64,000 nucleotides of DNA from Tateyamaria omphalii (GTDB taxonomy: Bacteria > Pseudomonadota > Alphaproteobacteria > Rhodobacterales > Rhodobacteraceae). The notes under the pieces are model-generated. The model was not told the DNA's origin, did no database searches, and was given only the letters and a program-made list of their open reading frames with translations. The position numbers and the translations under genes are program-made. The stretch is taken from assembly GCF_001969365.1 (NCBI RefSeq), contig NZ_CP019312.1:2666001-2730000 (forward strand), given 5' to 3'. This document shows positions 6,590 through 32,223 of this stretch, piece after piece (position 1 is the first letter of the stretch; each line of letters starts with the position of its first letter).

Positions 6590-6730
6590 TGGGAAGAACC
6601 TATCCTGACCTTGCGCGCCGACGCTACCCGCGCGGCAATCGGGTGACCAGACACACAGTCCAGAGTTAATCCTTGACCTCAAGTGCGCTTGACCTCGTAG
6701 CCCTTGGAAAACTCTGGCACGAGCACTCCC

Positions 6731-10050: not shown

Positions 10051-10064
10051 GAATTTTCCGGTCT

Positions 10065-10086
10065 GCAAGTTTCGCGCAAGGTTCGC
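10065..10086. promoter_or_regulatory. Tandem 11-bp direct repeats, candidate TctD box
   Basis: GCAAGTTTCGC (10065-10075) is followed directly by GCAAGGTTCGC (10076-10086), identical but for one base. OmpR-family regulators bind head-to-tail half-sites spaced by 11 bp, exactly this geometry. The site lies 15 bp upstream of the tctD start and about 97 bp upstream of tctC, so it could control both directions. A TTGACG at 10095-10100 may be the -35 of tctC, but I see no convincing -10. Confidence 0.6.
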
Positions 10087-10182
10087 AGGTCAGTTTGACG
10101 ACATCAACCGGGCATGGACAGCCCGGTCACACTGGTTCGGTCGACCCGGGGAGGGGACGACCAACACATAAGGGAGGAATAT

Positions 10183-11295
10183 ATGTCCATCATCAAAACC
10201 ACACGTCGTGTGGCCTGCAGCCTCGTGGCCGCAGCCGCCGCCACATTCGCCGTTCAAGCCAACGCAGGCGGGCACGGCATTGATCTCGAAGGCAAGACCG
10301 TCGAATGGATCATCCCGTTCTCGGAAACGGGCGGCTCGGCCAAATGGGCCAACTTCTACGCGCCGTTGCTGAGTGAAGCACTGCCCGGCCAGCCCACCGT
10401 CGTCGTCAAGTTCATGCCCGGCGCAGGCTCGACCAAGGGCGCGAACTTCTTCCAGGAGCAGGACTATGCCGACAGCGAGGGCACGCTGATCTTCGGCTCA
10501 TCCGGATCGACTCAATTCCCGTTCCTGCTGGGCGATCCGCGGGTGAAGTACAACTACGCGGATTGGAACGTCGTCCTGGCGTCGGGCACGGGCGGTGTTG
10601 CCTATCTGCCGCCAGACATGGCGGCCAAGATGGACGGGCTCGATGCGTCGGGCCTGCAGGGAGAGGACTTCATCTATGGCTCGCAGGGCGCCACGCGTCT
10701 CGACCTCGTGCCGCTTCTGGCGTGGGAGATGCTGGGTCTGCAAGTCGAACCCGTCTTTGGCATCAAGGGACGCGGCGATGGTCGGCTGATGTTCGAACGG
10801 GGCGAAGCCAACATCGACTACCAGACCTCGTCGTCCTTCCTGTCGGGCGTGACCCCGCTGGTCGAAGCAGGCACCGCCGTGCCGATGATGAGCTGGGGTG
10901 CGCTGGACGCAGATGGCAACATCGTGCGCGATCCGACCTTCCCCGACATGCCGACGTTCAAGGAGGTGTGCGAGGCAACAGACGGCTGCGAAACCTCCGG
11001 CACGCAGTGGGACGCGTGGAAAGCCTTCTTCATCGCGGGTTTCCCGGCGCAGAAGATGGTATTTCTGCCCAACGGCGCATCGGCGGACGCGATTGCCACC
11101 TACACGCAGGCGTTCGAGGCGGTCAAAGCCCGCGCCGACTTTGGCGACATCTCGTCCAAGCGTCTGGGTAAATACCCGCAGATGACAGGCGCCGAAGCAC
11201 AAGGTGCGCTCGAAAGCGGCACCAACGTCCCGCAAGAGGCCAAGGACTTCGTCGTTGGCTGGCTCGAAGAACGCTACGGCGTGACGCTCAACTAA
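10183..11295 (+). CDS. tctC: TTT transporter substrate-binding protein (TctC-like)
   Basis: 370 aa from the ATG at 10183, preceded by a near-perfect Shine-Dalgarno (AAGGGAGGAAT). A cleavable signal peptide is clear: KTTRRVACSLVAAAAATFAV then QANAGG. The mature part has the TctC/Bug landmarks VEWIIPFSETGGSAKWANFY, FMPGAGSTKGANFF and the NGASADAIATY region. The protein captures carboxylates in the periplasm and delivers them to the TctAB permease encoded next. It is the first gene of a six-gene operon with catabolic enzymes downstream. Confidence 0.9.
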   Translation: MSIIKTTRRVACSLVAAAAATFAVQANAGGHGIDLEGKTVEWIIPFSETGGSAKWANFYAPLLSEALPGQPTVVVKFMPGAGSTKGANFFQEQDYADSEGTLIFGSSGSTQFPFLLGDPRVKYNYADWNVVLASGTGGVAYLPPDMAAKMDGLDASGLQGEDFIYGSQGATRLDLVPLLAWEMLGLQVEPVFGIKGRGDGRLMFERGEANIDYQTSSSFLSGVTPLVEAGTAVPMMSWGALDADGNIVRDPTFPDMPTFKEVCEATDGCETSGTQWDAWKAFFIAGFPAQKMVFLPNGASADAIATYTQAFEAVKARADFGDISSKRLGKYPQMTGAEAQGALESGTNVPQEAKDFVVGWLEERYGVTLN

Positions 11296-11311
11296 GTCTT
11301 TGCTTTCGGAG

Positions 11312-11337
11312 CGCGCTGTCCCCGCGGGGACAGCGCG
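11312..11337 (+). terminator. 12-bp GC stem between tctC and the permease gene
   Basis: CGCGCTGTCCCC (11312-11323) pairs perfectly with 11326-11337, followed by only three T. In binding-protein operons such a stem often leaves more binding-protein mRNA than permease mRNA by partial termination or by blocking 3' decay; that role is inferred here. Confidence 0.55.
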
Positions 11338-11365
11338 TTTCATCAAGCAAAGCAAGGGGCATTTC

Positions 11366-13393
11366 ATGGACATTCTGGCAACGGCACTCCCCGCGCTCAG
11401 TGATGCGTGGGCCCTGATCCTGCAACCCATCGTGCTGGGCTATCTGGTGCTGGGCGTCGTTATGGGCCTGTGTATCGGGGTGTTTCCGGGCCTGGGCGGC
11501 ATTGCCGGGCTGTCGCTGCTTTTGCCCTTCATGTTCGGCATGGACCCGATCCTGGGCCTTGCGCTGATGGTCGGCATGGTGGCCATCGTGCCCACCTCGG
11601 ACACGTTCGCCTCCGTCCTCATGGGCATCCCCGGCTCCTCCGCGTCGCAAGCGACGGTGCTCGACGGCTTCCCAATGGCCAAGCGCGGCCAGGCGGCGCG
11701 CGCCCTGTCAGCCGCATTCGCCTCATCGCTCTTCGGCGGCCTCGTGGGCGCCAGCTTTCTCACCATCTTCATCCTGATCGCCCGCCCCATCGTGCTGGAA
11801 TTCCGCACGCCGGAACTCCTGATGATCACTATCTTCGGCCTCTCCATGGTCGGTATCCTCGCGGGCCGCGTCGCCATCAAAGGACTGGTGGCTGCGGGCC
11901 TCGGCATGCTGATCGGCACAATTGGAGAGGGCGCATCTTCGGGCGACTTGCGCATGTCGTCCTACGATTACCCCTACCTCACCGACGGGCTGAAACTGGT
12001 GATCGTGGGCCTTGGCATCTTCGCCATCCCCGAGATCATATCGCTGCTGCGCCAGGACCGCGCCATCGCCAAGGAACAGTCGCTGGGCGGCGGCTGGCTT
12101 GAAGGCGTGCGCGACTGGTTTGCGAACATCTGGTTGTCTGTCCGCTGCTCGATCATCGGCGTGGTGGTCGGCGTGATCCCCGGCCTTGGCGGATCGGTCG
12201 TCGACTGGATCGCCTACGGCCACGCCGTCCAATCGACCAAGGACAAGGCCAATTTTGGCAAGGGCGAAGTGCGCGGGGTGATCGGACCCGAAAGCTCCAA
12301 CAATGCCAAAGAGGGCGGCGGGCTCGTCCCCACCCTCCTCTTCGGCATTCCCGGCTCCGGCTCCATGGCCATCTTCATCGGTGCCATCGCCTTGCTGGGC
12401 TCTGGCCAGATCGAGGTCGGCCCGGCCATGCTGAAAAACAACCTCGACATTACCTATTCCATCGTCTGGCTCCTGGCACTTGCCAACGTCGTGGGCACGG
12501 TGATCTGCATCGCAGCCTCCGGCGGGATCGCCAAGCTCACAACGATCCGCTTCGCGCTCCTGGCGCCGTTCCTCTTCATGATCATCAGCTTCGCCGCTTT
12601 CCAGTCGGGCCAGAACCTGATGGACCTCGTGGCGCTTTTCGCCATCGGCTTCCTGGGCATCCTGATGCGCCGCTTCGACTGGTCGCGGCCTGCCTTTCTG
12701 ATCGGCTTCGTGCTGTCGAACCCAGCCGAAACCTACGCAAACCAGGCCCTGCAAATCGCCCAATCCCGTTTCCGCCGCGGTTTCGACGAAGGGCTCGACT
12801 ACATCTTTTCCCCTATCGTGATCGTCCTGATCATCATCACCGTCCTGTCGGTGGTCGTCGGCCTGCGCCAATCCAAGAACATCATGGCCGAGGGCGACGT
12901 CCAGTCCGGCTCGAAACGTGCACCCTTCCTGTTCCTGATCGCGGTCACCGCCTACATCGCCTACGCCTTCTACGACGCCGCCTCGATCCCCAGCTTCAGC
13001 CGCGACCGCACCTTCCCCATGTTCGTGGCGGGCGTCTGCCTCGTGGGTTGCGTGATCCTGGTGATCCGCATGATGCTGAAACCCGAAACAGACACGATCT
13101 TTGCCGACCGCGAGCGTGAAGGGGACGACGCCGACGCCACATACGGCCTTTGGCCGACACTCGCGTGGTTCGCGGTCCTCCTGATCCTGACATCCCTCCT
13201 TGGCTTCATCCTCGCCCTCGCCCTATTCCTGTTCGCCTTTCTTAAAATCCGCGCCGGGCTCAGCACAGCCATGGCTACGGCCTACACAGCCGCAGGCATC
13301 GCCTTCATGTGCACGATGGCGGGCCTGCTGAACCGCGACTTCCCACCCGGTCTTTTGCAAGAATATGTCGACCTGCCCTGGCCCCTGACATGA
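11366..13393 (+). CDS. TTT transporter permease, TctA fused to TctB
   Basis: 675 aa from the ATG at 11366. Residues 1 to about 510 are the large TctA permease with its repeated signatures LCIGVFPGLGGIAGLSLLLP and GVIPGLGGSVVDWIAYGHAV, each followed by the serine/proline-rich loops typical of the family (GIPGSSASQATVLDG and GIPGSGSMAIFIGAI). From about 515 a four-helix segment beginning SKRAPFLFLIAVTAYIAY is the small TctB subunit, normally a separate gene placed before tctA. Order and fusion are therefore unusual. Its stop overlaps the next start (ATGA). Confidence 0.88.
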   Translation: MDILATALPALSDAWALILQPIVLGYLVLGVVMGLCIGVFPGLGGIAGLSLLLPFMFGMDPILGLALMVGMVAIVPTSDTFASVLMGIPGSSASQATVLDGFPMAKRGQAARALSAAFASSLFGGLVGASFLTIFILIARPIVLEFRTPELLMITIFGLSMVGILAGRVAIKGLVAAGLGMLIGTIGEGASSGDLRMSSYDYPYLTDGLKLVIVGLGIFAIPEIISLLRQDRAIAKEQSLGGGWLEGVRDWFANIWLSVRCSIIGVVVGVIPGLGGSVVDWIAYGHAVQSTKDKANFGKGEVRGVIGPESSNNAKEGGGLVPTLLFGIPGSGSMAIFIGAIALLGSGQIEVGPAMLKNNLDITYSIVWLLALANVVGTVICIAASGGIAKLTTIRFALLAPFLFMIISFAAFQSGQNLMDLVALFAIGFLGILMRRFDWSRPAFLIGFVLSNPAETYANQALQIAQSRFRRGFDEGLDYIFSPIVIVLIIITVLSVVVGLRQSKNIMAEGDVQSGSKRAPFLFLIAVTAYIAYAFYDAASIPSFSRDRTFPMFVAGVCLVGCVILVIRMMLKPETDTIFADREREGDDADATYGLWPTLAWFAVLLILTSLLGFILALALFLFAFLKIRAGLSTAMATAYTAAGIAFMCTMAGLLNRDFPPGLLQEYVDLPWPLT

Positions 13394-14475
13394 CACAGAC
13401 AGCCATCCCATACCTCTTCATGCGCGGTGGCACCTCGCGCGGGCCGTACCTGAACCGCGCCGACCTGCCTGACGATCTGGACATGCTGGCCGACGTCCTG
13501 ATCGCCATGCTCGGCTCCGGCCACCCACTCAATATCGACGGCATCGGCGGCGGCGCTGCGGTGGCAACCAAGGTCGCCATGCTGTCACGGTCAGCGGATG
13601 ATTGGGCCGACATCGACTACTTCTTCGCCCAGGTCAGCGTCGAAGACCGTCTGGTCGATTTCAAACCCACCTGCGGCAACATCCTGTCCGGCGTCGGCCC
13701 CGCCGCGATCGAGATGGGGCTGGTGGGCGCCCGTGGCGGCGAAACCCAGGTCAACATCCGCGCCGTCAACACCGGCGCGCGGGTCAGCGCAACGGTGCAA
13801 ACACCTGACGGCCAAGTCACCTATGATGGCCCCACTCAGATCGACGGCGTGCCCGGTACGGCAGCACCCGTCGCACTCCAGTTCATGGACACGGTCGGCG
13901 GAGCAACGGGGTCGTTCCTGCCCACCGGCAACCTGATCGACACCATCGACGGCATCCCGGTCACCTGCATGGACGTCGCCATGCCCATGGTGATCGCGCG
14001 CGCCGCGGATTTCGGCCTCAGCGGCTATGAAAGCGCCACCGAACTGGACGAGAACACCGACTTCTTCGCCCATATGGAAGCCATCAGGCTGCAGGCCGGA
14101 GCGCTCATGGGCATGGGCGATGTCTCAAAATCCGTCACACCCAAGTTCGGCCTCGTCGCCCCTGCCCGCACCGGCGGGACAATCGCCACACGTTACTTCA
14201 TGCCATGGAAAACCCACCCGACCATGGCGGTCACAGGCGCGCAATGCCTCGCCTGCTGCGTGCTGACGCCCGGCACGGTCGCAGATGCGCCGATCCCGAA
14301 CGCAGGCCCGGCGCCCATCACCCTCGAACACGCATCGGGTCAAATCGACGTGCTGGTGGATTACGACCTGACGGATACCGGCATCGCGATCAACTCCGCC
14401 GGACTGGTCCGTACAGCGCGCAAACTGGCCGCCGGGCACGTCTATATCCCGGCCTCAGTCTGGGGAGGGAATTGA
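13390..14475 (+). CDS. PrpF/GalD-family isomerase (4-oxalomesaconate tautomerase or aconitate isomerase type)
   Basis: 361 aa. The N-terminal IPYLFMRGGTSRGPYLN and the motif KPTCGNILSGVGPAAIEMG are hallmarks of the PrpF family, diaminopimelate-epimerase-fold enzymes that shift double bonds in tricarboxylates. Known members are GalD (4-oxalomesaconate tautomerase) and PrpF (aconitate isomerase); sequence alone does not choose. Being in one operon with a tricarboxylate transporter and a TcuA-like dehydrogenase, an aconitate-type substrate is the more economical inference. It is translationally coupled to the permease. Confidence 0.82.
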   Translation: MTQTAIPYLFMRGGTSRGPYLNRADLPDDLDMLADVLIAMLGSGHPLNIDGIGGGAAVATKVAMLSRSADDWADIDYFFAQVSVEDRLVDFKPTCGNILSGVGPAAIEMGLVGARGGETQVNIRAVNTGARVSATVQTPDGQVTYDGPTQIDGVPGTAAPVALQFMDTVGGATGSFLPTGNLIDTIDGIPVTCMDVAMPMVIARAADFGLSGYESATELDENTDFFAHMEAIRLQAGALMGMGDVSKSVTPKFGLVAPARTGGTIATRYFMPWKTHPTMAVTGAQCLACCVLTPGTVADAPIPNAGPAPITLEHASGQIDVLVDYDLTDTGIAINSAGLVRTARKLAAGHVYIPASVWGGN

Positions 14476-14488
14476 CGCGCGCTCAAAA

Positions 14489-14498
14489 TTGTATACAA
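14489..14498. promoter_or_regulatory. TTGTATACAA palindrome upstream of the 79-aa gene
   Basis: A perfect 10-bp palindrome in the 47-bp gap after the isomerase gene, with a second half-like GGATACAA at 14500-14507. Such sequences are seen as operators of GntR-type regulators. No GntR gene is in the window, so the assignment is only suggestive. Confidence 0.3.
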
Positions 14499-14522
14499 GC
14501 GGATACAAAATGGAGGTGCAAG

Positions 14523-14762
14523 ATGCTCGATACGTTCGAAGACTGCGTTCTCGCCGCCCGCGCGGAACTGGCCATGGCCCGACAACTGCTGCAGGACGAG
14601 ATTTCCAACTACCCCGGCCCCATCGCGGGCTGTGACGCCCAATTCAACCACCTGCTGGCCGAACGACAAAAGGTGCTGACCGCGATCCAGTCTCTGGACG
14701 AATGCGTCTTTGTCCCAACCCCACGCTCCCCCTCACCGCAGGACGGTGTCGAGAGCCGATGA
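14523..14762 (+). CDS. Small 79-aa protein of unknown function in the TTT catabolic operon
   Basis: 79 aa, MLDTFEDCVLAARAEL onward, preceded by a good ribosome site (GGAGGT) 5 nt upstream of the ATG. I recognise no family. The first 60 residues look helical (LAARAELAMARQLLQDE, FNHLLAERQKVLTAIQSLDE), with two cysteines, and the tail is proline/serine-rich. No signal peptide or membrane helix is seen. Its stop overlaps the start of the dehydrogenase gene (ATGA), so it is translated with it and may be an accessory subunit. That role is inference only. Confidence 0.65.
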   Translation: MLDTFEDCVLAARAELAMARQLLQDEISNYPGPIAGCDAQFNHLLAERQKVLTAIQSLDECVFVPTPRSPSPQDGVESR

Positions 14763-15733
14763 AGGTTCACATCCTCGACGACTGGTTCGACACGCTGCGC
14801 TCCCTGCCGTGCTTCGGCAAGCTGGCAGCACACGACGTCACCGTATGGACCGACCACGCCCCCGACCCGGCCACCCTTGCCCAGCGCGTGGCAGAGGCGG
14901 AGGTGCTCGTGCTCTTCCGCGAACGCACAAAGATCACCGCCGATCTGCTCGACCGCCTGCCGCAGCTCAAACTCATCTCGCAGCGCAGCGTCTATCCGCA
15001 TATCGACGTGCCAGCCTGCACACGCAACGGTGTGCTCCTGTGTTCCAACATGCACTCCGACACGCCCTCCTATGCCGCCGCCGAACACACGCTGGCGCTG
15101 ATGCTGGCCAGCTATCGGCAGATCCCCGAACAGGTCGCCGCCATCCGCGCAGGCCAGTGGCAGGCGGGCGTCGGGCGCACACTGCGGGGCCGCACTCTCG
15201 GGCTCTACGGCTACGGGCGGATCGCACAAGCCGTTGCGACATACGCCCAGGCCATCGGGATGCATGTGCAATGGTGGGCGTCCGACGAAGGGCGCGCGCG
15301 GGCCAAGGCGGCGGGCGAAACCGTCGCCCCCTCGCGTGCGGACTTTTTCGCCACATCGGACATTTTCAGCATCCATGTGCGCCTCAAGCCCGCCACAAGG
15401 GGGATTATCACAAGCGAAGACCTTGCCGCCATGGCACCCCGTAGCCTGTTCGTGAACACGTCGCGCGCGGGCCTCGTGGCCCCCGGCGCGCTCGAAACCG
15501 AAATCGCCCGCAACCGCATCTTTGCCGCCATTGACGTCTTCGACACCGAACCGCTCACAGATACCGCTCACCCGCTGCTCACCGCACCCAACGTCCTGCC
15601 GACCCCCCATATCGGCTACGTGACCGAGGACGAGTTCGACCTGCAATTCGCCGACATATTCGACCAGATCAACGCCTTCGCAGACGGCAGCCCCATCCAC
15701 ATGATCAACCCCGAAATCTGGACCACCCTATGA
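14759..15733 (+). CDS. D-2-hydroxyacid dehydrogenase family protein
   Basis: 324 aa from the ATG at 14759. It has the two-domain layout of NAD-dependent 2-hydroxyacid dehydrogenases: the flanking domain (LKLISQRSVYPHIDVPACT), the nucleotide-binding motif LGLYGYGRIAQAVATYAQAIG near residue 145, the substrate Arg in VNTSRAG, the Glu in DVFDTEP, and the catalytic His in PTPHIGYVT. It resembles phosphoglycerate/lactate-type enzymes; the true substrate is probably a hydroxy-acid intermediate of this operon. It overlaps its neighbours on both sides by 4 bp. Confidence 0.85.
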   Translation: MKVHILDDWFDTLRSLPCFGKLAAHDVTVWTDHAPDPATLAQRVAEAEVLVLFRERTKITADLLDRLPQLKLISQRSVYPHIDVPACTRNGVLLCSNMHSDTPSYAAAEHTLALMLASYRQIPEQVAAIRAGQWQAGVGRTLRGRTLGLYGYGRIAQAVATYAQAIGMHVQWWASDEGRARAKAAGETVAPSRADFFATSDIFSIHVRLKPATRGIITSEDLAAMAPRSLFVNTSRAGLVAPGALETEIARNRIFAAIDVFDTEPLTDTAHPLLTAPNVLPTPHIGYVTEDEFDLQFADIFDQINAFADGSPIHMINPEIWTTL

Positions 15734-17202
15734 CGCACATCATCATCGCCGGATCCGGCAACGCCGCCCTCTGCGCAGGCATTGCAGCCCTCGAAAAAGG
15801 GGCGAGCGTCCTGATGCTGGAAAAGGCGGACGAGGCACTCGCCGGTGGCAACACGAAGTATACCGCAGGCGCGATGCGCTTTGCATATGAGGATGGCGCC
15901 GACCTGATCCCGCTTTTGCGCGACCCCGACGATCCCCGCCTGCCGCGGACGGATTTCGGCAGCTACACAGCAGATAAATTCGGCGCCGACCTGCTGGGCT
16001 TCAACGACGGCCGCCCGCTCAGCCCGGAACAGCAAACGCTGATCTCGGAAAGCTACGACACACTGAAATGGCTGGGCAGCCATGACGTGAAATTCGAACC
16101 GATCTATGCGCGTCAAAGTTTTGAAAAGGACGGGCGCCACGTGTTCTGGGGCGGTCTGACCCTTGCCGCCGAAAACGAGGGAGTGGGCCTGTTCGATCAA
16201 GAGCTTGCCGCCTTCACGCGGCTCGGCGGTGAGATCCGCTATGAAACCGCCGTCACGGATCTGATCCACGACGAGGGCCACGTCACCGGCGTCATGACCG
16301 ACACGGGCGACCGCCTGATGGCAGACGCCGTTATCCTGGCCTGCGGCGGGTTCGAGGCAAACGCCGATCTGCGCCAGCAACATATCGGCGCCGATTGGGA
16401 CAAGGCCAAGGTGCGCGGGACACCGCACAACACCGGCGACGGGCTGGTCATGGCCGCCAGGCTGGGCGCGCAGGAATATGGCTTCTTCGGCGGCTGTCAC
16501 GCCACACCCATGGACCTGCACATGGCCGATTACGGCAACCTCGACCTGCCCCCGGGCGAGCGCAAGAACTACCGCAAGATCTGTTACTTCCTCGGCGTGA
16601 TGCTCAACGCAAACGGCCACCGCTTTGTCGATGAGGGGATCAATTTCCGCAACTACACCTACGCCCAATTCGGCGCCGCCATTATGGAACAACCCGGCCA
16701 CTTCGCCTGGCAGATCTTCGATGCCAAGGTTTTGGACCTGCTCTATGGCGAATACCACTTCCACGATGCGCACTATGTCGAAGCCGATACGCTCGCCGCG
16801 CTGATCCCGATGCTGGACGGCGTGGATCAGGCGCAGGCGGCGCAGACGCTGGCCGACTACAACGCCGCGGTGGACGACGCAGTGCCCTTTGACCCCACGA
16901 TCCTTGATGGCAAGGGCACGCAGGGGCTGCCGCTGGCCAAGTCCAACTGGGCGCAAAAATTGGATCAAGGCCCTTTCCGCGCCTACCCGGTCACCGGAGG
17001 GATCACGTTCACCTATGGCGGGCTGAAAGTGGGCGCGACAGGCGCGGTCTTGAACACCGAAGACAATGCGATCCCCGGTCTCTATGCCTGCGGCGAACTG
17101 GTGGGCGGCGTGTTCTGGGGCGGCTATCCGGGCGGATCCGGGCTGACTTCGGGTGCCGTGTTCGGGCGACGCGCGGGTTACGGGGCGGCCGCGCGCGGTT
17201 AG
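15730..17202 (+). CDS. TcuA-like FAD-dependent tricarballylate dehydrogenase
   Basis: 490 aa. The N-terminus HIIIAGSGNAALCAGIAALEKGA is the FAD-binding Rossmann motif, followed by LMLEKADEALAGGNTKYTAGAMRF, which is characteristic of the TcuA branch of the fumarate-reductase/succinate-dehydrogenase flavoprotein family. The C-terminal FAD segment YACGELVGGVFWGGYPGGSG is also present. TcuA oxidises tricarballylate to cis-aconitate; its partner TcuB, which re-oxidises the flavin, is not in this window. The gene is last in the TTT operon and its stop overlaps the convergent lacI-type gene by 3 bp. Confidence 0.8.
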   Translation: MTHIIIAGSGNAALCAGIAALEKGASVLMLEKADEALAGGNTKYTAGAMRFAYEDGADLIPLLRDPDDPRLPRTDFGSYTADKFGADLLGFNDGRPLSPEQQTLISESYDTLKWLGSHDVKFEPIYARQSFEKDGRHVFWGGLTLAAENEGVGLFDQELAAFTRLGGEIRYETAVTDLIHDEGHVTGVMTDTGDRLMADAVILACGGFEANADLRQQHIGADWDKAKVRGTPHNTGDGLVMAARLGAQEYGFFGGCHATPMDLHMADYGNLDLPPGERKNYRKICYFLGVMLNANGHRFVDEGINFRNYTYAQFGAAIMEQPGHFAWQIFDAKVLDLLYGEYHFHDAHYVEADTLAALIPMLDGVDQAQAAQTLADYNAAVDDAVPFDPTILDGKGTQGLPLAKSNWAQKLDQGPFRAYPVTGGITFTYGGLKVGATGAVLNTEDNAIPGLYACGELVGGVFWGGYPGGSGLTSGAVFGRRAGYGAAARG

Positions 17203-18200
17203 CGAAGATCGGCGACAGACGCCCGCTCGATGATCCGCGCGGGCAACTCCTCACTCCGCAGGTCCACGCCATCCTCCAGATACGCCACGATCCGCTCTGC
17301 CACCATGTCCCCCATGCCGGTGGCAGGCAGGTCGATTGTTGTCAGCGGCGGCTCAATGTCGCGCGACCAGTCCAGGTTGTCAAAGCCCATAACCGACACA
17401 TCCAGCGGAATGCGCTTGCCCGCCTGGGCACAGGCAAAATAGGCACCCAGCGCCAGCACGTCAGTGGAACAGAGGTAAGCGGTAAATTCACGTGGATCAT
17501 CAAGGGCCGCGCGCACGCAGGCCTTTCCCCCGGCCACATCCAAAGGCGCCTCGAAGAACGCCAGGTGTTCGAACCGATCGCCCACCGACATCGCACCGGC
17601 GCGGCGGGCACGGGTCCGGTCGCTCTCGGCCAGCGGCCCATGCACCACGGCCACCCTTCGGTGCCCGCGCTCTGCCAAGTGCGCCAGCGCCCGCTCCGCC
17701 AGCAACGCATTGTCGTATCCAATGGTCGGTCGCGCACTGCGCGCGTCCCAGGCCGAAGTGAACACATAAGGCACCGCCCGCCGCTCCAGCATGTCAAGCA
17801 GCAGGTCGCTGTGATCGAGGCCGCTCAGGATCAGCGCATCGGCCCCCATACCGAGCAGCTTGCGGGCGGCGGCCAACTCTTCGACCTCATCGGCGTTGGA
17901 AATGGCCATGATCAGTGAATACCCACGTGCGCCCAGCGTCCGTTCGATGGCTGCGATGAACTTGGCAAAGACCGAATGCTCGATGGTCGGGATGATGGCC
18001 GCCACCGCCTTCGACCGCCGCGTCGACAAGGCGCGCGCCGCCGGGTTGGGCAGGTAATCCAGCCGCGCACAGGCTTCCAGTACGGTCTGCCGCGTCTTCT
18101 CGCTGACCTTGCTGCCACCATTCACCACGCGCGAGATTGTCGCCGTGGACAAGCCCGTTTCGCGGGCAACATCGCGGATACTGACACCAATCCTGTTCAC
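17199..18200 (-). CDS. LacI-family transcriptional regulator
   Basis: 333 aa. The N-terminal helix-turn-helix VSIRDVARETGLSTATISRVVNGG with the hinge helix NPAARALSTRRS is diagnostic for LacI/GalR. The periplasmic-binding-like core follows (AAIIPTIEHSVFAKFI, VSVMGFDNLDWSRDIEPPLTTI). It reads away from the DUF1989-GcvT operon and a perfect 14-bp LacI-type palindrome lies in the shared gap, so it most likely controls that operon. The effector is unknown; a sugar is not obvious from the target genes. Confidence 0.92.
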   Translation of the reverse strand: MNRIGVSIRDVARETGLSTATISRVVNGGSKVSEKTRQTVLEACARLDYLPNPAARALSTRRSKAVAAIIPTIEHSVFAKFIAAIERTLGARGYSLIMAISNADEVEELAAARKLLGMGADALILSGLDHSDLLLDMLERRAVPYVFTSAWDARSARPTIGYDNALLAERALAHLAERGHRRVAVVHGPLAESDRTRARRAGAMSVGDRFEHLAFFEAPLDVAGGKACVRAALDDPREFTAYLCSTDVLALGAYFACAQAGKRIPLDVSVMGFDNLDWSRDIEPPLTTIDLPATGMGDMVAERIVAYLEDGVDLRSEELPARIIERASVADLR

Positions 18201-18256
18201 AAACCGCCCCCCTCCTGCCCCACGCTCTTGACCGAAGCGATTCGCAAGTGTTCAAA

Positions 18257-18270
18257 TGTAACCGGTTACA
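18257..18270. promoter_or_regulatory. LacI-type operator TGTAACCGGTTACA
   Basis: A perfect 14-bp palindrome with the central CG typical of LacI-family operators. It lies 57 bp upstream of the lacI-type start and 47 bp upstream of the DUF1989-GcvT start, which fits a repressor shared by both genes. Confidence 0.75.
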
Positions 18271-18316
18271 CCGTGCGCTCGTCAAATGATGCGGCAACCA
18301 AACAGGGAAATAGCTC

Positions 18317-20641
18317 GTGTTACAACGTAGCGATAGCTTGGCACCACAACGCGTGCGGTATCAGGGTTTGAAAGACGCATCGACCCTGCGCCGCGATGTA
18401 CGATATGGCCAAATGGACCACGTGCATGTGCGGGCAGGCTCCGTCATCTCCGTCACGACAGTCGATGGCGGATGCGACGTCTGGCTGACCTCACGGCCCC
18501 GTGACGCACGCGACTTTGGCGTAACCGCCTTCGACGGGCCCATCGGCACAGGTGATGCGCTGCCCGCTACAGGGTTCGACACACGGGCGCTTCGAGCCAT
18601 GGCGCAAAGCCGCGACACCACGCTGGACCAGGCCCGAGGCCTGCGCATCTTTGGTCCCGACGCCCCCGCAGGCGAAACCCATATCGGCAAGATCACGCAA
18701 GACGCCGACCTGATCTGCATCCTGCCCGCGCAGGGCGGGTTCATCGAAACAGGCGCTGGCGGGCGCGTGGTGCTCACAATCCAACCGCCCGCGGGCAACG
18801 GCCATGATCTCACCCTGCCCGACCCTCTGGGCCACGTGGTGGACGAATGGCGGGTCAGCCGCGGCACGGCCCGGGCCTACACCCTGAAAAAGGGACAATT
18901 CGTGCAGATCATCGACGTCGAAGGGCAGCAATGCTCGGACTTCATGGCGATGCGCGCCGACGCGCTGGACCAAGGGGTCGAACGCTATATCGACAGCACC
19001 GTTTCCCGCACCATGGCGCGCGGCGCCTACCCAACCCCCGGCCTGCACGACAAATTCTTTGACCAGGACATGGTGCCGCTTTTGGCCCTGCGCCAGGACA
19101 CCGTGGGGCGGCACGACACCTTTGCCCTTGCCTGCACCGCGCGCGGATACGAAGAACGCGGCTTTCCCGGCCACATCAACTGCTCCGACAACATCTCGGG
19201 CGCCTTCGCGCCCTACGGCATCGGCACCCGCCGCGCCTGGCCCGCCATCAACTTCTTCTTCAACTCGTGGATCGACTGGCAGAACCACCACATCGCCGCG
19301 GATGAGGCATGGTCCCGCCCCGGTGATCACGTGACCATGCAGGCGCTGACTGACCTCGTCTGCGTCTCGACCGCCTGCCCCGACGACGTGGACCCGATCA
19401 ATGGATGGAACCCGACGGATGTCCATGTGCGCATCTATGACGAAACCAGCCGGATACAGCACGCCGTGGCCTGGCGCGCCAACCCCGAGGACGCCGCGCA
19501 AATGACCGCCCGCTCCGCCTTCCATCCGCGCATTTCCAAGCTGACCAGCAGCTTCCAGGTCGCGCGGCAGCTCTGGATGCCCACGCAATACGACGCCACG
19601 GGGGCCATCGCCGAATACTGGGCCTGCAAGACCGCCGCCACGCTCCAGGACATGTCCGGCCTGCGCAAATTCGACATCATCGGCCCGGATGCCGAGGAAC
19701 TCCTGCAAATCTGCCTGACCCGCAACGCAGCCAAACTGTCCCAACATCGCGGCTTCTACGCCCTTATTTGCGACGCGCGCGGCTCGGTGCTGGACGACGG
19801 CACGCTCTTCCGGCTCGAAGACACGGCCTTCCGCTGGTGCTGCGGGTCGGACAACTCGGGCCTGCACCTGCGCGAACAGGCGGCCGCCCACGGGCTGAAC
19901 GTGCGGGTGCTCAGCTACGGCGACAAGATCCAGAACCTTGCACTCCAAGGGCCCAAATCACGCGATATCCTGCGCAAGATCGTCTTCACCCAACCCTCGC
20001 GCCCGGCGCTCGACAACCTCAAATGGTTCGGCTTCACCATCGCCCGCCTGCACGACCGCGACGGGCCGATGTTCATGCTCTGCCGCACGGGCTTCACCGG
20101 CGAACTGGGCTATGAAATCTTCTGCGACAGCGCCGATGCGGTCACCATCTGGGACGCGCTGATGGAAGCAGGCGCTCCCGACGGGCTGGTGCCGATGGGC
20201 AGCCACGCGCTTGAAATGTTGCGGATCGAGGCGGGGCTGATGATCTCGGGCGCCGAATTCGGGCCCGAGGCTGACGCTTTTGAGTCGGGCCTCGGTTTCG
20301 CCGTCGATCTGAAAAAACCGCACTTCATCGGGCGCACCGCGCTCGAACGCAACACCACGGCCCCCCGGCGCACGCTCGTGGGCCTCCACATGGTCGGCAA
20401 CGAGGTGCCCGTCCATGGCGACGGCATCTTTGTCGGGCGCGAGCAGGTGGGCACGGTCACAAGCGCCTGCCACTCTCCTGCACTTGGTCATGCGATCTGC
20501 ATGGCGCGCGTTGCCGTTGAGAACGCCGCAACTGGCACGAACCTGGAAGTGGGCAAACTGGACGGACATATGAAGCGCCTGGGCGCCACGCTTGTCGATC
20601 TGCCCTTCCTCGACCCCAAAAGAGAAAAGGCACGCGCGTGA
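18317..20641 (+). CDS. DUF1989-GcvT fusion protein (aminomethyltransferase-like)
   Basis: 774 aa from a GTG at 18317 (AGGG upstream; no ATG before codon 33). Residues about 1-165 are an N-terminal extension, about 170-370 a DUF1989 domain with the signature LVCVSTACPDDVDPINGWNP, and about 390-774 a GcvT-like folate-binding aminomethyltransferase (MSGLRKFDIIGPDAEELLQ, CRTGFTGELGYEIFCD, LRIEAGLMISGAEF, plus the C-terminal barrel). GcvT-fold enzymes take methyl or methylene groups to tetrahydrofolate. Followed directly by a betaine-type ABC transporter, the likely substrate is an imported N- or S-methylated compound; which one is unknown. Its stop overlaps the next GTG. Confidence 0.82.
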   Translation: MLQRSDSLAPQRVRYQGLKDASTLRRDVRYGQMDHVHVRAGSVISVTTVDGGCDVWLTSRPRDARDFGVTAFDGPIGTGDALPATGFDTRALRAMAQSRDTTLDQARGLRIFGPDAPAGETHIGKITQDADLICILPAQGGFIETGAGGRVVLTIQPPAGNGHDLTLPDPLGHVVDEWRVSRGTARAYTLKKGQFVQIIDVEGQQCSDFMAMRADALDQGVERYIDSTVSRTMARGAYPTPGLHDKFFDQDMVPLLALRQDTVGRHDTFALACTARGYEERGFPGHINCSDNISGAFAPYGIGTRRAWPAINFFFNSWIDWQNHHIAADEAWSRPGDHVTMQALTDLVCVSTACPDDVDPINGWNPTDVHVRIYDETSRIQHAVAWRANPEDAAQMTARSAFHPRISKLTSSFQVARQLWMPTQYDATGAIAEYWACKTAATLQDMSGLRKFDIIGPDAEELLQICLTRNAAKLSQHRGFYALICDARGSVLDDGTLFRLEDTAFRWCCGSDNSGLHLREQAAAHGLNVRVLSYGDKIQNLALQGPKSRDILRKIVFTQPSRPALDNLKWFGFTIARLHDRDGPMFMLCRTGFTGELGYEIFCDSADAVTIWDALMEAGAPDGLVPMGSHALEMLRIEAGLMISGAEFGPEADAFESGLGFAVDLKKPHFIGRTALERNTTAPRRTLVGLHMVGNEVPVHGDGIFVGREQVGTVTSACHSPALGHAICMARVAVENAATGTNLEVGKLDGHMKRLGATLVDLPFLDPKREKARA

Positions 20642-21696
20642 CAGAACACAGCGAAGACGGGGTGGTCGTCACCCGCAACGTATGGAAAATCTTTGGCAGC
20701 CGCGCGGATGAGGCGATGGCAGCCGTCCGACGAGACAACCTGTCCAAGGCCGAAGTGCTGGAAGAGTTCGGCGCCGTGGTCGGGGTCAAGGATGTCTCGA
20801 TCTCCGTCGGCGAGGGCGAGATTTTCTGCATCATGGGCCTCTCCGGCTCCGGCAAATCCACCCTTGTGCGGCACATCAACCGCCTGATCGAACCCACGGG
20901 CGGTGATATCCTGATCAACGGCGCCAATGTCGGCCAACTCAATGCCGAGGAATTGCGCGCCATGCGCGCCGACAAGATCGGCATGGTGTTCCAGAACATG
21001 GCCCTCCTGCCCCACCGCACGGTGCGCGACAACGTCGCCCTGTCGCTGGAATTGCGCAATGTCGACGCATACACACGGGCGCAAGTGGCTGACCGCGTGA
21101 TCGAACTGGTCAGCCTGCAGGGCTACGGCGACCGCCTGCCCTCGGAGCTTTCCGGCGGGATGCAGCAACGCGTGGGCCTGGCCCGTGCCATGGCCGCCGA
21201 TCCAGATATTCTGTTGATGGACGAACCCTTTTCGGCCCTCGACCCGCTGATCCGCCGCGTGCTTCAGGACGAATTCCTCGAATTGTCGAAGTCCATGAAC
21301 AAGACCACGCTCTTCATCACCCACGACCTTGATGAAGCGATCCGCATGGGCAGCCGCATCGCCATCATGAAGGATGGCGAGATCGTCCAAGTCGGCACAC
21401 CCGAAGACATCGTGACCCAGCCCGCCGACGATTACGTCGCGGACTTCGTGGCGGGCATCTCCAAGCTGAAACTGCTCTATGCCCACACGGTCATGGAACC
21501 GCTCGAAGCCTACGAACAACGCAAAGGGCCAGTGGCGCAGGCCGAGGCACCCGTGGCCGACCCGGATGACGACCTCGACAAGCTGATCGCGCTCAGCGTC
21601 AACCAGGACCACCCGGTCCTGATCAAGTCGGACGGCAATGTCGTGGGTGTGGTGTCCAAAGATGCAATCCTGCACGGCGTCCAGGGGGAGGCGTAA
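20638..21696 (+). CDS. ABC transporter ATP-binding protein, glycine betaine/proline type (ProV-like)
   Basis: 352 aa starting at a GTG that overlaps the preceding stop (GTGA). Walker A GLSGSGKST near residue 65, signature ELSGGMQQRVGLARA, Walker B ILLMDEPFSALDPL and the switch THDLDEA are intact. The N-terminal NVWKIFGSRADEAM and the C-terminal tail (about 80 residues, one CBS-like segment PVLIKSDGNVVGVVSKDAIL) are ProV features. It powers import by the permease and binding protein encoded next. Confidence 0.93.
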   Translation: MTEHSEDGVVVTRNVWKIFGSRADEAMAAVRRDNLSKAEVLEEFGAVVGVKDVSISVGEGEIFCIMGLSGSGKSTLVRHINRLIEPTGGDILINGANVGQLNAEELRAMRADKIGMVFQNMALLPHRTVRDNVALSLELRNVDAYTRAQVADRVIELVSLQGYGDRLPSELSGGMQQRVGLARAMAADPDILLMDEPFSALDPLIRRVLQDEFLELSKSMNKTTLFITHDLDEAIRMGSRIAIMKDGEIVQVGTPEDIVTQPADDYVADFVAGISKLKLLYAHTVMEPLEAYEQRKGPVAQAEAPVADPDDDLDKLIALSVNQDHPVLIKSDGNVVGVVSKDAILHGVQGEA

Positions 21697-21698
21697 AC

Positions 21699-23285
21699 AT
21701 GACCGACACAACACCCGATCACATGGGCGGCGCGACAGCCGCGACCACGGACGAAACCAAACCCTTCGCCGATTTCGCCGACAAATCCGGCGGCTATTTC
21801 GCACAGACCTTTCTGTCGATCCAGAAGGCGCAACTGCCTGCGACCCACGTGAACTGGATCGCCGCCATCGCGGGCTTTCCCTGGGCCGCGATCCGCGCCA
21901 ACAAAATGCTGTTCTGGGTCGGCTTCCTGATCGACCTCGTGGCCGCCGTCTACCTGATGCAGGTCTGGAAATTCTCGCGCGCCGCCGAACAGGCGGTCAT
22001 CGACAACAAGGACTTCCTCGTCGAACGCTACGAAAACTGGACCTCCTCCAGCCTCTGGGCCGCCGTCATCATCTTCGTGCTGGGCCGCCTGCTCTATGGC
22101 TGGCTCGCCGACCGCCTCTATTTCAAGCAATACAACACCTGGCGCGTAGACCACTCCAAGCCTTCGGGTTGGGACACCAAACGCCTCGTCTGGGCCGCCG
22201 TCATCGTCGCGATGATCGCGCCGCTGATGCTCTACCGCGCCTCGCAATTCCCGCCAGAGGAACGGACCTGCATCAAACAGGCCCGCGCCATCGCCGACGG
22301 CGAAGAGGTCGGGTTCAAGGACCGGTTCGACTGTCTCATCATCGGCGAATTCCCCACAATCGTCTGGCTCGACCGGCGCGACATCGTCACATACCCCCGC
22401 GACGACAACGGCGACCGCTTCGTGCGCCGCGAAGCGCCCCGCGAAGGCCTGCCCCCCGTCAACCTCAACAGCTACACCGCACAACTGATCGACGACGGCA
22501 TCGGCTACCTCACCGCCTTCTACGGCTTCTTCTTCGACGGGATCACGGCGGGTCTGCGGTCGATGCTGTCCGCCATCACAGCCGTCTTCGTGGGCACGCC
22601 ATGGATCATCGCCATGGGGGCGATCATGGCGATCAGCTATACGATGGCAGGCACCCGAATAACCATATTTGTCGCCGCCTCCCTTTGTTACCTCGCCCTC
22701 TTCGGCTTCTGGCAAACGGCCATGGACACCATGAGCCTCGTGGTCGCCGCCTCAATCATATGCATCGTCTTCGGCCTACCCTTAGGCATCTGGGTCGGCA
22801 AATCGAAACGAGGGCAGGCGATCATCACGCCCATCCTCGACATCATGCAGACGATCCCGTCCTTCGTGTACCTGCTGCCTGCGGTCGCCTTCTTCTCGAT
22901 CGGCAAACCGCCGGGCATCCTGGCCACGGTCATCTTCGCCATGCCGCCCATGGTGCGCCTCACCGCCCTCGGCATCCGCCACGTCCCCGAAAACACCAAG
23001 GAAGCGGCCCTCGCCTTCGGCGCCAACCCCCGTCAACTGCTGACCAAGGTCGAACTGCCCCAGGCGCTGCCGTCCATCATGGCAGGCGTCAACCAGGTGG
23101 TGATGATGGCGTTGTCGATGGTCGTGGTCGCGGCCCTGATCGGCGCGGGCGGCATGGGCTTCATCGTCACCGAAGCACTGGCAAACACCCGCACGGGCGC
23201 GGGCATCCTGGCCGGGATCGGCATCGCGCTTCTGGCGATGATGATCGACCGGGTCGTGCAAAAGGCCAACACCGTCAAACACTAA
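21699..23285 (+). CDS. ABC transporter permease, ProW-like, with long N-terminal extension
   Basis: 528 aa, longer than typical ProW (about 350). Residues 1 to about 235 hold an extension with three hydrophobic helices and a polar domain, then the ProW core follows from about 250. The core carries the EAA-loop motif KEAALAFGANPRQLLTKVELPQALPSIMAG and the usual PTIPSFVYLLP-like segment (MQTIPSFVYLLPAVAFFSIG). It forms the membrane channel for the binding protein downstream. The start is 2 bp after the ATPase stop. Confidence 0.9.
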   Translation: MTDTTPDHMGGATAATTDETKPFADFADKSGGYFAQTFLSIQKAQLPATHVNWIAAIAGFPWAAIRANKMLFWVGFLIDLVAAVYLMQVWKFSRAAEQAVIDNKDFLVERYENWTSSSLWAAVIIFVLGRLLYGWLADRLYFKQYNTWRVDHSKPSGWDTKRLVWAAVIVAMIAPLMLYRASQFPPEERTCIKQARAIADGEEVGFKDRFDCLIIGEFPTIVWLDRRDIVTYPRDDNGDRFVRREAPREGLPPVNLNSYTAQLIDDGIGYLTAFYGFFFDGITAGLRSMLSAITAVFVGTPWIIAMGAIMAISYTMAGTRITIFVAASLCYLALFGFWQTAMDTMSLVVAASIICIVFGLPLGIWVGKSKRGQAIITPILDIMQTIPSFVYLLPAVAFFSIGKPPGILATVIFAMPPMVRLTALGIRHVPENTKEAALAFGANPRQLLTKVELPQALPSIMAGVNQVVMMALSMVVVAALIGAGGMGFIVTEALANTRTGAGILAGIGIALLAMMIDRVVQKANTVKH

Positions 23286-23315
23286 CCAAGAATGAGTTCA
23301 ATAAGGGAGACACAT

Positions 23316-24266
23316 ATGAAACTCATGACAACCCTCACCGCTGCAGGGGCCCTGTCGGTCGCTGCCGTGGGCGCGCAGGCACAGGAAAAGGTCGCCATCT
23401 CCGACCTCAACTGGACCGGCGCCAAGGCCATCGCATACGTCATCAAGACCGTGATCGAAGGGCCGCTGAACTCCGAAGCCGAGATCGTCGAAGGGCTCTC
23501 CGACCAGGCCATCATCGGCGCAGGCATGGACAAGGGCGACGGCTCGGCCGACGTCTGGACCGACATGTGGATGCCGAACCAGCAAGCGCCCTGGGACAAG
23601 TATATCGAGGACGCAGGCACCGTCGCCCACAACCAGCCCTACGCGGGCACCCAGCAGATGTACGTGCCCAGCTACATGTCCGACCAGATCAGCTCGTTCG
23701 AGGATCTGAAGGACCCGGCCGTGGCTGCCATGTTCGACAAGGACGGCAACGGCAAGGGCGAATACTGGGCCGGTGACGCCTCTTGGAAATCCACGAAAAT
23801 CTGGCAGGTCAAGATGAAGTCCTATGGCCTCTCCGAACTGTGGGAGCCCGAGATTATCTCGGACGCGACGTTCAAGGCGCAGCTGAAATCGTCCTACGGC
23901 AACCAGAAACCGATCCTGTTCTACTACTGGACGCCCGAATGGATCCACGCCGCCTATGACATCACGCCGCTGGACGAGCCTGAGCACACCGAAGGCTGCA
24001 TGAACCTGCAGCTGGATGGCGAGGACTGGCTGGAAGTGTCCGAAGCAGGCTGCAAAACGCCGGACGCCCAGATCTTTGTCAGCTACTCCAAGTCGCTGGA
24101 AGAACGGAACCCGCCCGCGGCCAAATTCCTGAGCCAGATCCAACTGGACCCCGCGGTCGTGAACAGCTGGATCCTTGCCATCGGCCGGGATGAGATGGAC
24201 CCGCAAGACGTCGCCGAAGAATGGGTGGCCGAGAACATGGACATCGTGCAAACCTGGATCAACTAA
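23316..24266 (+). CDS. ABC transporter substrate-binding protein, glycine betaine/choline type (ProX/OpuAC-like)
   Basis: 316 aa from the ATG at 23316 with AAGGGAG upstream. A Sec signal peptide is evident (KLMTTLTAAGALSVAAVGAQAQ). The mature part contains the OpuAC landmarks ISDLNWTGAKAIAYVIKTVIE, ADVWTDMWMPNQQAPWDKY and ILFYYWTPEWIHAAYD; the many Trp/Tyr residues are suited to caging a quaternary ammonium or sulfonium group. It closes the operon and is followed by a strong terminator. Confidence 0.9.
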   Translation: MKLMTTLTAAGALSVAAVGAQAQEKVAISDLNWTGAKAIAYVIKTVIEGPLNSEAEIVEGLSDQAIIGAGMDKGDGSADVWTDMWMPNQQAPWDKYIEDAGTVAHNQPYAGTQQMYVPSYMSDQISSFEDLKDPAVAAMFDKDGNGKGEYWAGDASWKSTKIWQVKMKSYGLSELWEPEIISDATFKAQLKSSYGNQKPILFYYWTPEWIHAAYDITPLDEPEHTEGCMNLQLDGEDWLEVSEAGCKTPDAQIFVSYSKSLEERNPPAAKFLSQIQLDPAVVNSWILAIGRDEMDPQDVAEEWVAENMDIVQTWIN

Positions 24267-24283
24267 GCCCGTTGATGTTCAGG

Positions 24284-24320
24284 AACCCGGCGAGAGCGAT
24301 GGCTCGCGCCGGGTTTTTTT
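24284..24320 (+). terminator. Rho-independent terminator after the betaine-type ABC operon
   Basis: AACCCGGCGAGAGC pairs with GCTCGCGCCGGGTT (one mismatch) around a 4-nt loop and ends in a run of seven T. Confidence 0.9.
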
Positions 24321-24347
24321 GTTGGGGTGATTTGCTTGGGTGGTGCT

Positions 24348-27673: not shown

Positions 27674-30600
27674 TCAGTCGCGGCTGTCTTCCGAATGGTC
27701 GATGACCGTGTCGAACACATCGCCACCCACCACGTCGTCGGCGCTCGGCGCGGCCAAGGCAGCGGCCGCTTCGGCCTCTTCCCGGCGGGCTTCGATGACC
27801 ACGTTGTCGCGATCCGATGCGATCTTGCGCACGGCCTGGGTTGCCCCGCCGGTCCCTGCCGGGATCAGACGGCCCACGATCACGTTCTCTTTCAGACCCA
27901 CCAGCTTGTCCTTCTTGCCCTGCACCGACGCCTCGGTCAGAACACGCGTCGTTTCCTGGAACGACGCGGCAGAGATAAAGGACCGCGTTTGCAGCGACGC
28001 CTTTGTAATCCCCAGCAGGATTGGACCACCCTGTGCCGGACGACCACCTTTCGACAGCGCTTTGTCGTTGGCCGCGTCGAACTCCTGCTTGTCCACGTGC
28101 TCGCCTTTCAGCAGCGTGGTGTCGCCCGAGTCCTCGATCTCCCATTTCTGGAGCATCTGACGCACGATGACCTCGATGTGCTTGTCGTTGATCTTCACGC
28201 CCTGCAGTCGGTAAACCTCCTGCACCTCGTTGATCATGTAGTCGGCCAAGGCCTCCACACCCATGATGGCAAGGATGTCATGGGGGGCAGGGTTGCCGTC
28301 CATGATGTAGTCACCCTTCTGGATGAAGTCGCCCTCGGCCACCGGGATGTGCTTGCCCTTGGGCACCATGTACTCGACCTTCTCCATGGTCTCGTCGCTG
28401 GGCTCAATCGCAATGCGGCGCTTGTTCTTGTAGTCCTTGCCAAAGCGCACGTAGCCATCAATCTCGGCGATGATCGCGTGGTCCTTGGGACGACGGGCCT
28501 CGAACAACTCGGCCACACGGGGCAGACCACCGGTGATGTCCTTGGTCTTGGCACCTTCGCGCGGGATCCGGGCGACAACGTCACCGGCTTCCACGGTCTG
28601 GCCATCCTCGACCGACAGAACGGCATCCACGGACATCGGATAGGTCACCGGGTTGCCCGCATCATTGCGGACCGGCTCGCCATCTTCGCCCACCAGAATG
28701 ATCTCCGGCTTCAGCTCGTTGCCCTTGGGCGCTGTCCGCCAGTCGATCACGATCTTCTGGGTCATACCGGTGGCATCGTCCGTCTCGTCGCGCACGGCCA
28801 GACCGCTCACGAGGTCCACGTATTTCGCCGTACCGGCCTTCTCCGCGATGATCGGCAACGTGTAGGGGTCCCACTCAAACAGCTTGTCGCCGCGCTTCAC
28901 ATCCTGACCATCGGTCACGAACAATGCCGTCCCGTAACCCAGTTTGTGGTTCGCGCGCTCGTCGCCGTTCTCGTCCATGATCGACATCTTCATGTTCCGG
29001 CCCATGACCAGAACCTGCCCTGCCGCGTTGGTCAGCGTCTGGGCGTTCTCAAAGACGATCTTGCCCTCCTGGCTCGCTTCCAGGAACGACTGCTGACCAC
29101 CTTGCGCAACACCGCCGATGTGGAAGGTCCGCATCGTCAGCTGCGTGCCGGGCTCACCGATGGACTGGGCGGCGATGATGCCGACAGCCTCGCCGGTGTT
29201 GACCATGGTGCCGCGGGCCAGATCGCGCCCGTAACACATGGTGCACACACCCTCTTCGCTTTCGCAGGTCAGGGGCGAGCGGATGCGCATCGACTGCACA
29301 CCCATCTCTTCGATCATGTCGGACATGCGCTCGTCGATCAGCGTGCCAGCGGCCAGGATCACCTCATCGGTGCCGGGCTTCAGCACGTCGTCGGCGGCCA
29401 CACGGCCCAGCACACGCTCGGCCAGCGACGACACCACTTCGCCATCGTTCACAGCCGCTTCGGCGGTGATGGCCTTGTCCGTGCCGCAGTCCAGATCGCG
29501 CACGATACAGTCCTGGGCCACGTCCACCAGACGGCGGGTCAGATAGCCCGAGTTCGCCGTCTTCAAGGCGGTGTCAGACAGACCTTTCCGGGCACCGTGG
29601 GTCGAGTTGAAGTATTCAAGAACGGTCAGACCTTCCTTGAAGTTCGAGATGATCGGCGTCTCGATGATGTCGCCGTTCGGCTTCGCCATAAGGCCGCGCA
29701 TCCCGCCCAGCTGCTTCATCTGCGTGACGGAACCACGGGCACCCGAGTGGGCCATCATGTAGACCGAGTTCGGCTCCATCTCGGACCCGTCCTCGTCCCG
29801 ACGATCGGCCGAGATCGAACCCATCATGGCGTCGGTGACCTTGTCGTTACACTTCGACCAGGCATCGACCACCTTGTTGTACTTCTCGCCCTGGGTGATC
29901 AGGCCGTCCATGTACTGCTGTTCGAAATCCTTCACCTGCTCGCGGGTATCGTCAACGATGGTCCACTTGGTGTCGGGGATCAGCATGTCGTCCTTGCCGA
30001 ACGAAATGCCCGCCTTGAACGCTTCCTTGAAGCCCATGGACATGATCTGGTCACAGAAGATAACCGACTCTTTCTGACCGCAATAACGGTAGACGGTGTC
30101 GATGACCTGCTGCACTTCCTTCTTCCGCAGAAGACGGTTGACCAGTTCGAACGGCGCCTTGTTGTTCAGGGGCAAAAGTGCGCCCAGACGGACACGGCCC
30201 GGCGTGGTTTCAAAACGCTGCATGACCTCCTGGCCGGTCGCGTCAATCTGCGGCACCCGTGCCGTGATCTTGGCGTGCAGATGCACTTCGCCCGCGTCGA
30301 GAGCATGTTGCACTTCCTCGATCGAGCCAAAGACCATGCCCTCGCCCTTCATGCCCGCGCGTTCCAGCGTGACATAGTAAAGGCCCAGGATCATGTCCTG
30401 CGACGGCACGATGATCGGTGCGCCGTTGGCAGGCGACAGCACGTTGTTCGTCGACATCATCAGAACACGCGCTTCCAGCTGTGCTTCCAGCGACAGCGGG
30501 ACGTGCACAGCCATCTGGTCACCGTCAAAGTCGGCGTTGAAGGCCGAACAGACCAGCGGGTGCAGCTGGATCGCCTTACCTTCGATCAGAACGGGTTCGA

Positions 30601-31918: not shown

Positions 31919-32223
31919 TGGGCGTCCTTTCCAGGCTCTTTGCATTCGTAGAAGGTGGCACGGCGATAAGAGCGCCACCTCATGGGAATTTCTTGTGTGC
32001 CGCGCGATCCCCAGACTTGTCTGGTGTTGCGCCGTTGCGGTGCTGTGGCTGCCTCGGGGCTAAGCTCAAAGCTTGATGGACAAATCGCTGCGTTCACATT
32101 CGCCGATACATCTTCTTCGTATCCAAAGAAGCGTTGGCTCTGTTGATCGTACACGGTTCCTCCAGCGATCTTGTAGCATCCGGTGAGGGTGGCTGTGGCG
32201 ACAAGCGCCACAGCTAATCTCAC
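31915..32223 (-). CDS. Small lipoprotein-like protein encoded between rpoB and rpoC
   Basis: 102 aa from a GTG at 32223. The start overlaps the rpoB stop (GTGA) and the stop overlaps the rpoC start (ATGA), so it fills the intergenic space with translational coupling on both sides. The N-terminus [15 protein letters not shown] is a lipoprotein signal with the lipobox LTGC at residues 13-16. The mature part has one more cysteine pair (ICPSS, YECKE) and no family I recognise. The middle (residues 60-90) is Arg-rich. The overlaps and lipobox support a real gene; codon use is less biased than rpoB/rpoC. Confidence 0.6.

Follow-up and report, generated by a model that had tools for sequence, protein, structure and literature searches.

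Trimethylamine N-oxide demethylase (Tdm) converts trimethylamine N-oxide (TMAO) to formaldehyde and dimethylamine. The characterized enzyme is that of Methylocella silvestris (profile NF053776; PDB codes 9q59 and 9q5a), and its orthologs are found beside the genes of the TMAO transporter TmoXVW. It is useful to compare this system with a locus in a 64,000-nucleotide stretch of the Tateyamaria omphalii genome (contig NZ_CP019312.1, positions 2,666,001 to 2,730,000), called the window below. The locus joins an enzyme with fused DUF1989 and GcvT domains to a betaine-type ATP-binding cassette (ABC) transporter and a LacI-family regulator. The open reading frames (ORFs) and Pfam matches bear out this arrangement as given in the initial annotation. 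The name TdmL is given here to the separate clade that holds the enzyme. On balance, the operon probably serves, in a substrate-specific way, to import and demethylate an onium compound different from TMAO; we infer its chemistry, substrate class and effector.

TdmL is encoded on the forward strand (18317..20641, GTG start as listed) and has 774 residues, with DUF1989 at residues 180-348 (18854..19360, Pfam E 4.3e-40) followed by GCV_T at residues 403-662 and GCV_T_C at residues 685-766 (19523..20614, E 8.8e-56 and 5.3e-18). It matches Tdm along the full length (1060.5 bits to NF053776; match to PDB 9q59) and shares its domain order end to end. Judged by sequence, the fusion is of a known type, the already characterized Tdm architecture. 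This end-to-end match rules out an orphan fusion. The window enzyme does not reach the curated NF053776 cut-off of 1100 bits. Six other TdmL proteins score 1046-1132 and four Tdm from the taxonomic family of the window (family Tdm) score 1114-1204; the cut-off is not decisive between the two groups because one TdmL, L078, reaches 1132 bits (one above it among the seven tested). The structure model of TdmL has a mean predicted local distance difference test (pLDDT) value of 81.9, and PDB 9q59 was not among the matches listed for it by Foldseek or VIA-align. The closest named relatives, among the best 80 of 571, are Tateyamaria proteins (92%). No paper on this paralog of Tdm was found in the open-licence literature, judged by title or opening of the abstract.

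The demethylase DmdA of dimethylsulfoniopropionate (DMSP), initially offered as the precedent, is a far weaker match than Tdm (141 bits to NF009133, cut-off 410). DmdA is not known to have a DUF1989 part. The glycine cleavage T-protein profiles are not reached either (TIGR00528 172.3 bits, cut-off 235.85; NF001567 223.2 bits, cut-off 300), and these scores rule out membership of both families. Weak matches to the urea amidolyase associated proteins (UAAP2 82.2 bits, UAAP1 51.9 bits) could hint at a hydrolase or deiminase activity of DUF1989 towards methylated guanidine or urea compounds. However, both lie far under their cut-offs (284.7 and 205.95) and the end-to-end relation is to Tdm, which leaves such an activity very improbable. 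The stand-alone DUF1989 proteins (PDB codes 3oru, 3siy and 3di4) have chains of 230-273 residues and, unlike TdmL, lack a GcvT part.

The available text on M. silvestris Tdm (PMC12560246) assigns roles to the Zn cysteines 263, 279 and 343 and to His276 and Asp198. TdmL shares these cysteines, the His and the Asp. D208, C273, H286, C289, C354 and D356 are kept in all 88 TdmL sequences and D357 in 87, with Glu in the remaining one; the combination characteristic of Tdm, the DUF1989-GcvT architecture with C273, C289, C354, H286 and D208, is thus found in 88/88. The same residues hold in 25 family Tdm except at the D356 position, which is Asp in 15, Cys in nine and Ser in one. PDB 9q5a differs at two aspartates, of which this is one, and the Cys and Ser residues agree poorly with a strictly essential role for it.

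Kept in every TdmL, the Zn-site residues fit an active DUF1989 site. This and the distant relation to DmdA both speak against a folate-dependent methyl transfer from a betaine or sulfonium compound, with DmdA-like chemistry and DUF1989 only binding or positioning the substrate; we regard that mechanism as unlikely. Nearly fixed changes from Tdm are seen in and near DUF1989, close to the Zn site, and include Phe247/Tyr, Gly277/Tyr, Phe283/Tyr, Ser294/Asn, Ala307/Gly and Ile361/Ala (TdmL/Tdm). Gly277, located in the sequence between two Zn cysteines, is present in 88/88 TdmL, while the position is Tyr in 25/25 family Tdm and, over the 50 sequences outside TdmL, Tyr (48), Thr (1) or Phe (1). The missing bulky side chain fits a bigger substrate, and the position may line the pocket.

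The separation of the two groups was seen in a scan of 198 genomes of the same family with a match threshold of E 1e-100. Matches were found in 51 genomes, and the identity to the window protein is bimodal: 56-100% in ten genomes and 44-48% in 46, with both in five. BLASTP identities for 25 extracted proteins of the second group are 42.7-47.9%, or about 42-48%. This group is taken as Tdm because a member adjoins TmoX (637 bits to 4xz6) in one genome holding both groups, and because of the four NF053776 scores given above. In the full-length tree with midpoint root, all 87 TdmL fall together (support 0.91), as do 26 Tdm including that of M. silvestris (1.0). The GcvT-domain tree contains 44 of the 87 TdmL, the 26 Tdm and nine outgroup rows from the T. 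omphalii genome (one a duplicate); the supports are 0.89 for TdmL, 0.98 for Tdm and 0.997 for both jointly. A sample of the phylum gave a match in 27 of 398 genomes, and the tree with 26 of these additions holds one more TdmL, for a total of 88, with a clade support of 0.90.

The window protein therefore lies outside the clade of M. silvestris and family Tdm and is placed in its sister clade in the sampled trees, in which SAR11 Tdm was not included by name. A tight clustering inside a characterized family, which the initial annotation had named as evidence against its own reading, was not found. Four relatives, L152, L160, L161 and L170, carry mixed signatures between TdmL and Tdm. The family thus has more than two branches, and these four possibly represent further subfamilies.

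The substrate-binding protein (SBP) of the operon, of the ProX/OpuAC type (316 residues, 23316..24266, forward strand; longest ORF version from 23292; OpuAC E 3.6e-42), was compared with the known binding proteins. It scores 39.8 bits against TmoX and 46.4 against E. coli ProX, and a profile of 22 SBPs linked to TdmL ranks OpuAC (68.8), DmpX (68.0), ProX (65.6), TmoX (56.0) and ChoX (41.4). The SBP model has a mean pLDDT of 90.8, and the fold comparison gives tied values for OpuA (26.6), ProX (26.2), TmoX (26.0) and DmpX (25.5). Such near-equal scores do not decide the type of SBP.

As described in the consulted part of the TmoX study (PMC8918994), the pocket is formed by Trp55, Trp102, Phe106, Glu131, Trp177, Phe220 and Trp222; Glu131 bonds the oxygen of TMAO, and its replacement by Ala in the SAR11 protein abolished binding. 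Among 52 linked SBPs, one per locus, the cage tryptophans Trp55, Trp102 and Trp177 (TmoX numbers) are kept in all. This feature and the OpuAC-type fold are common to TmoX and the window SBP. However, the full TmoX pocket is found in none of them. Position 131 is Gln in 19, Ala in 13, Thr in ten, Ser in ten and Glu in none; the column lies in a gapped region, where phmmer and MAFFT both give Gln for the window SBP. Phe is likewise absent from position 106 (Gln 38, Arg 12, His 1, Trp 1), position 220 is Tyr in 52/52, and position 222 is Tyr in 31 and Trp in 21. DmpX binds DMSP, and the portion of its description available lists Tyr200 and Glu113 in the pocket (PMC10030565); of these two, only the Tyr is found in the linked SBPs. 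With the glutamates of DmpX and TmoX both absent, neither known pocket fits.

TdmL might still be a second form of TMAO demethylase served by a separate TMAO transporter and regulator, carrying out the same reaction under other control or with another affinity, the dimethylamine being excreted or otherwise used. Tdm is the nearest characterized enzyme, all of its Zn-site residues are kept, one TdmL exceeds the Tdm cut-off, and Foldseek places TmoX first for the SBP model. Against this stand the loss of the oxygen-holding Glu131 from every linked SBP and the distribution of the genes across genomes, and we consider this explanation possible but rather doubtful.

This distribution was assessed in 50 TdmL genomes, hand-picked as the better assemblies from 80 named loci. 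Matches to the Tdm query are bimodal, at least 892 bits (true Tdm) or at most 690. Both enzymes are retained in 19 of the 50 genomes; in one of these (L062) the Tdm copy reads with one internal stop. DmmA-type genes (PF11927 at least 218 bits, the rest at most 189) occur in 13 genomes and Tmm genes (E 1e-40 or better) in 15, all within the 19 that hold Tdm, and neither gene was found in any of the 31 TdmL-only genomes. Fisher tests give 7.6e-8 for DmmA-type and 1.7e-9 for Tmm genes, values that are rough because the genomes are related. In the T. omphalii genome no Tmm match exceeds 29.6 bits and the PF11927 match is only 165.6 bits, and neither gene is present. The family scan agrees: 25 of the 46 Tdm genomes have DmmA-type genes (at least 215 bits, next 199), as have two genomes with neither enzyme, and none of the five TdmL-only genomes does. 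The co-occurrence with Tmm and DmmA that marks Tdm in the trimethylamine (TMA) pathway is not seen for TdmL, and TdmL thus does not regularly belong to the route from TMA through TMAO to dimethylamine; the search did not extend to other dimethylamine routes. Together with the distance and residues of the SBP, this absence and the coexistence of Tdm and TdmL rule out a plain Tdm with TmoXVW. Two TdmL-type matches each occur in the genomes of Ruegeria sp. 2205SS24-7 and Roseovarius albus, the latter also with two Tdm-type matches.

The control of the operon differs too. In R. pomeroyi, as far as the source covers it, TmaR and the GntR-type TmoR control the TMA genes (PMC13390433), while the regulator here belongs to the LacI family. 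It has 333 residues, is divergent from the operon (17199..18200, reverse strand) and contains both the helix-turn-helix and the periplasmic-binding-like domain of this family (Pfam LacI at residues 7-52, Peripla_BP_3 at 173-329 (Peripla_BP_3/1), over gathering scores). The putative operator proposed initially, the perfect 14-bp palindrome TGTAACCGGTTACA at 18257..18270 between regulator and enzyme, was confirmed by pattern scans of the window, the genome and related loci. Within the window no other sequence matches at up to two mismatches (shuffles predict 0.05), and within the genome no other site has 0-1 mismatch; the reversed control pattern occurs there twice per strand. Of the 53 loci with a divergent LacI gene, 25 carry the palindrome exactly and 46 carry it with no more than two mismatches, some having the centre CTAG in place of CCGG. 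With the same tolerance it occurs in 1/1060 letter-shuffled regions and in 4/33 loci without divergent LacI. The shuffle expectation and the recurrence rule out a chance operator.

Downstream of TdmL, the ProV-like ATPase (352 residues, 20638..21696; ABC_tran; TIGR01186, the proV subfamily, 350.3 bits, over the cut-off of 326.6) starts with a 4-base overlap. It is followed after two bases by a ProW-like permease with a long N-terminal extension (528 residues, 21699..23285; BPD_transp_1 at residues 359-516; 270.6 bits to the ChoW model, under its cut-off of 363), and after 30 more by the ProX-like gene, all on the forward strand. A hairpin and T run read from the sequence at 24286..24321 (forward strand) may be a terminator; the scan places the hairpin at 24301-24315, and the 6 hairpins that it counts are close in number to the 5.0 averaged over shuffles. 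No promoter was found in a promoter scan of the locus.

The linkage to the transporter, which the initial annotation wished to see checked across genomes, recurs, and the module is widespread. The comparison covers 86 loci: the window, the best 80 of 571 relatives and five more. At least two ABC genes are present in 57, a divergent LacI gene in 53, both in 45 (the window included) and neither in 21, some neighbours having been missed owing to simple script-based gene calling and to some contigs that stop close to the enzyme. The order is enzyme-X-V-W in 30 loci and enzyme-V-W-X in 19, and the taxa include Tateyamaria, Roseovarius, Ruegeria, Shinella, Roseibium, Marinomonas, Ideonella and Granulosicoccus. 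Within the stretches covered, further neighbours are DctM-like genes of tripartite ATP-independent periplasmic (TRAP) transporters in 14 loci, FAD-GcvT genes (dimethylglycine oxidase-like) in nine, PurU-like genes in three and MTTB-like genes in three. These clusters were named from Pfam matches of one or two members (30 neighbours in all were run) or from our own reading, and nothing is rested on their counts since no background rate is available. At L044, a gene for an MTTB-family methyltransferase (6326-7882, 713 bits) follows TdmL-X-V-W on the same strand, a hint of quaternary amines in that one locus.

Upstream of the regulator (8003-17202) lie a two-component pair, genes which we take to be TctC/TctA-like and PrpF-like, a 2-hydroxyacid dehydrogenase gene and a TcuA gene (NF006130 535.7 bits, cut-off 369). 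At L045, the same set without TcuA adjoins a TdmL gene that is only 59% identical. The accessory genes of the window are flanked by two reverse-strand genes named from sequence, rpsL (4192-4623) and an rpoC-like gene (27674-31978), and the stretch of more than 20 kb looks as if inserted into a core operon region (4192-31978).

In the working proposed here, LacI would act at the single palindrome to repress only this operon, until the substrate or a product releases it. The ProX, ProW and ProV proteins would import a small methylated onium compound, which the SBP would bind in an aromatic cage as its residues suggest. By analogy with Tdm, TdmL would strip a methyl group as formaldehyde at the Zn-centred DUF1989 site, and its GcvT domain could pass the carbon to tetrahydrofolate. 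The most likely substrate is an N-methyl, N-oxide or sulfonium/sulfoxonium compound that exceeds TMAO in size or differs from it in shape, and TMAO itself is less likely. The initial interpretation holds for the transporter linkage, the operator and the idea, supported at the level of sequence, that an onium compound different from the usual one is imported and demethylated; it had missed the relation to Tdm.

A speculative and rather improbable extension would make TdmL the demethylase still missing for some marine zwitterion that carries oxygen; candidates include a betaine-type N-oxide and dimethylsulfoxonium propionate (DMSOP). Cleavage enzymes are described for DMSOP, and its demethylation by DmdA is, in the part of the source consulted, a question still to settle (PMC10686828). 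TdmL could use the own oxygen of such a substrate, as Tdm does with TMAO, and release formaldehyde without O2 or flavin. This would mean a new onium degradation route in several alpha- and gammaproteobacterial groups, with a LacI regulator sensing a compound that is not a sugar.

The compact operon, the soluble-type SBP and the existing formaldehyde assay for Tdm make the question directly testable. TdmL genes are easily mistaken for TMAO demethylase, with the window protein just under the Tdm cut-off and one of the seven TdmL tested over it. Should the TdmL clade act on a different compound, tdm-like genes would in part have been misread as signs of TMAO turnover, and a widespread route for the uptake and demethylation of an unrecognized onium compound would exist.
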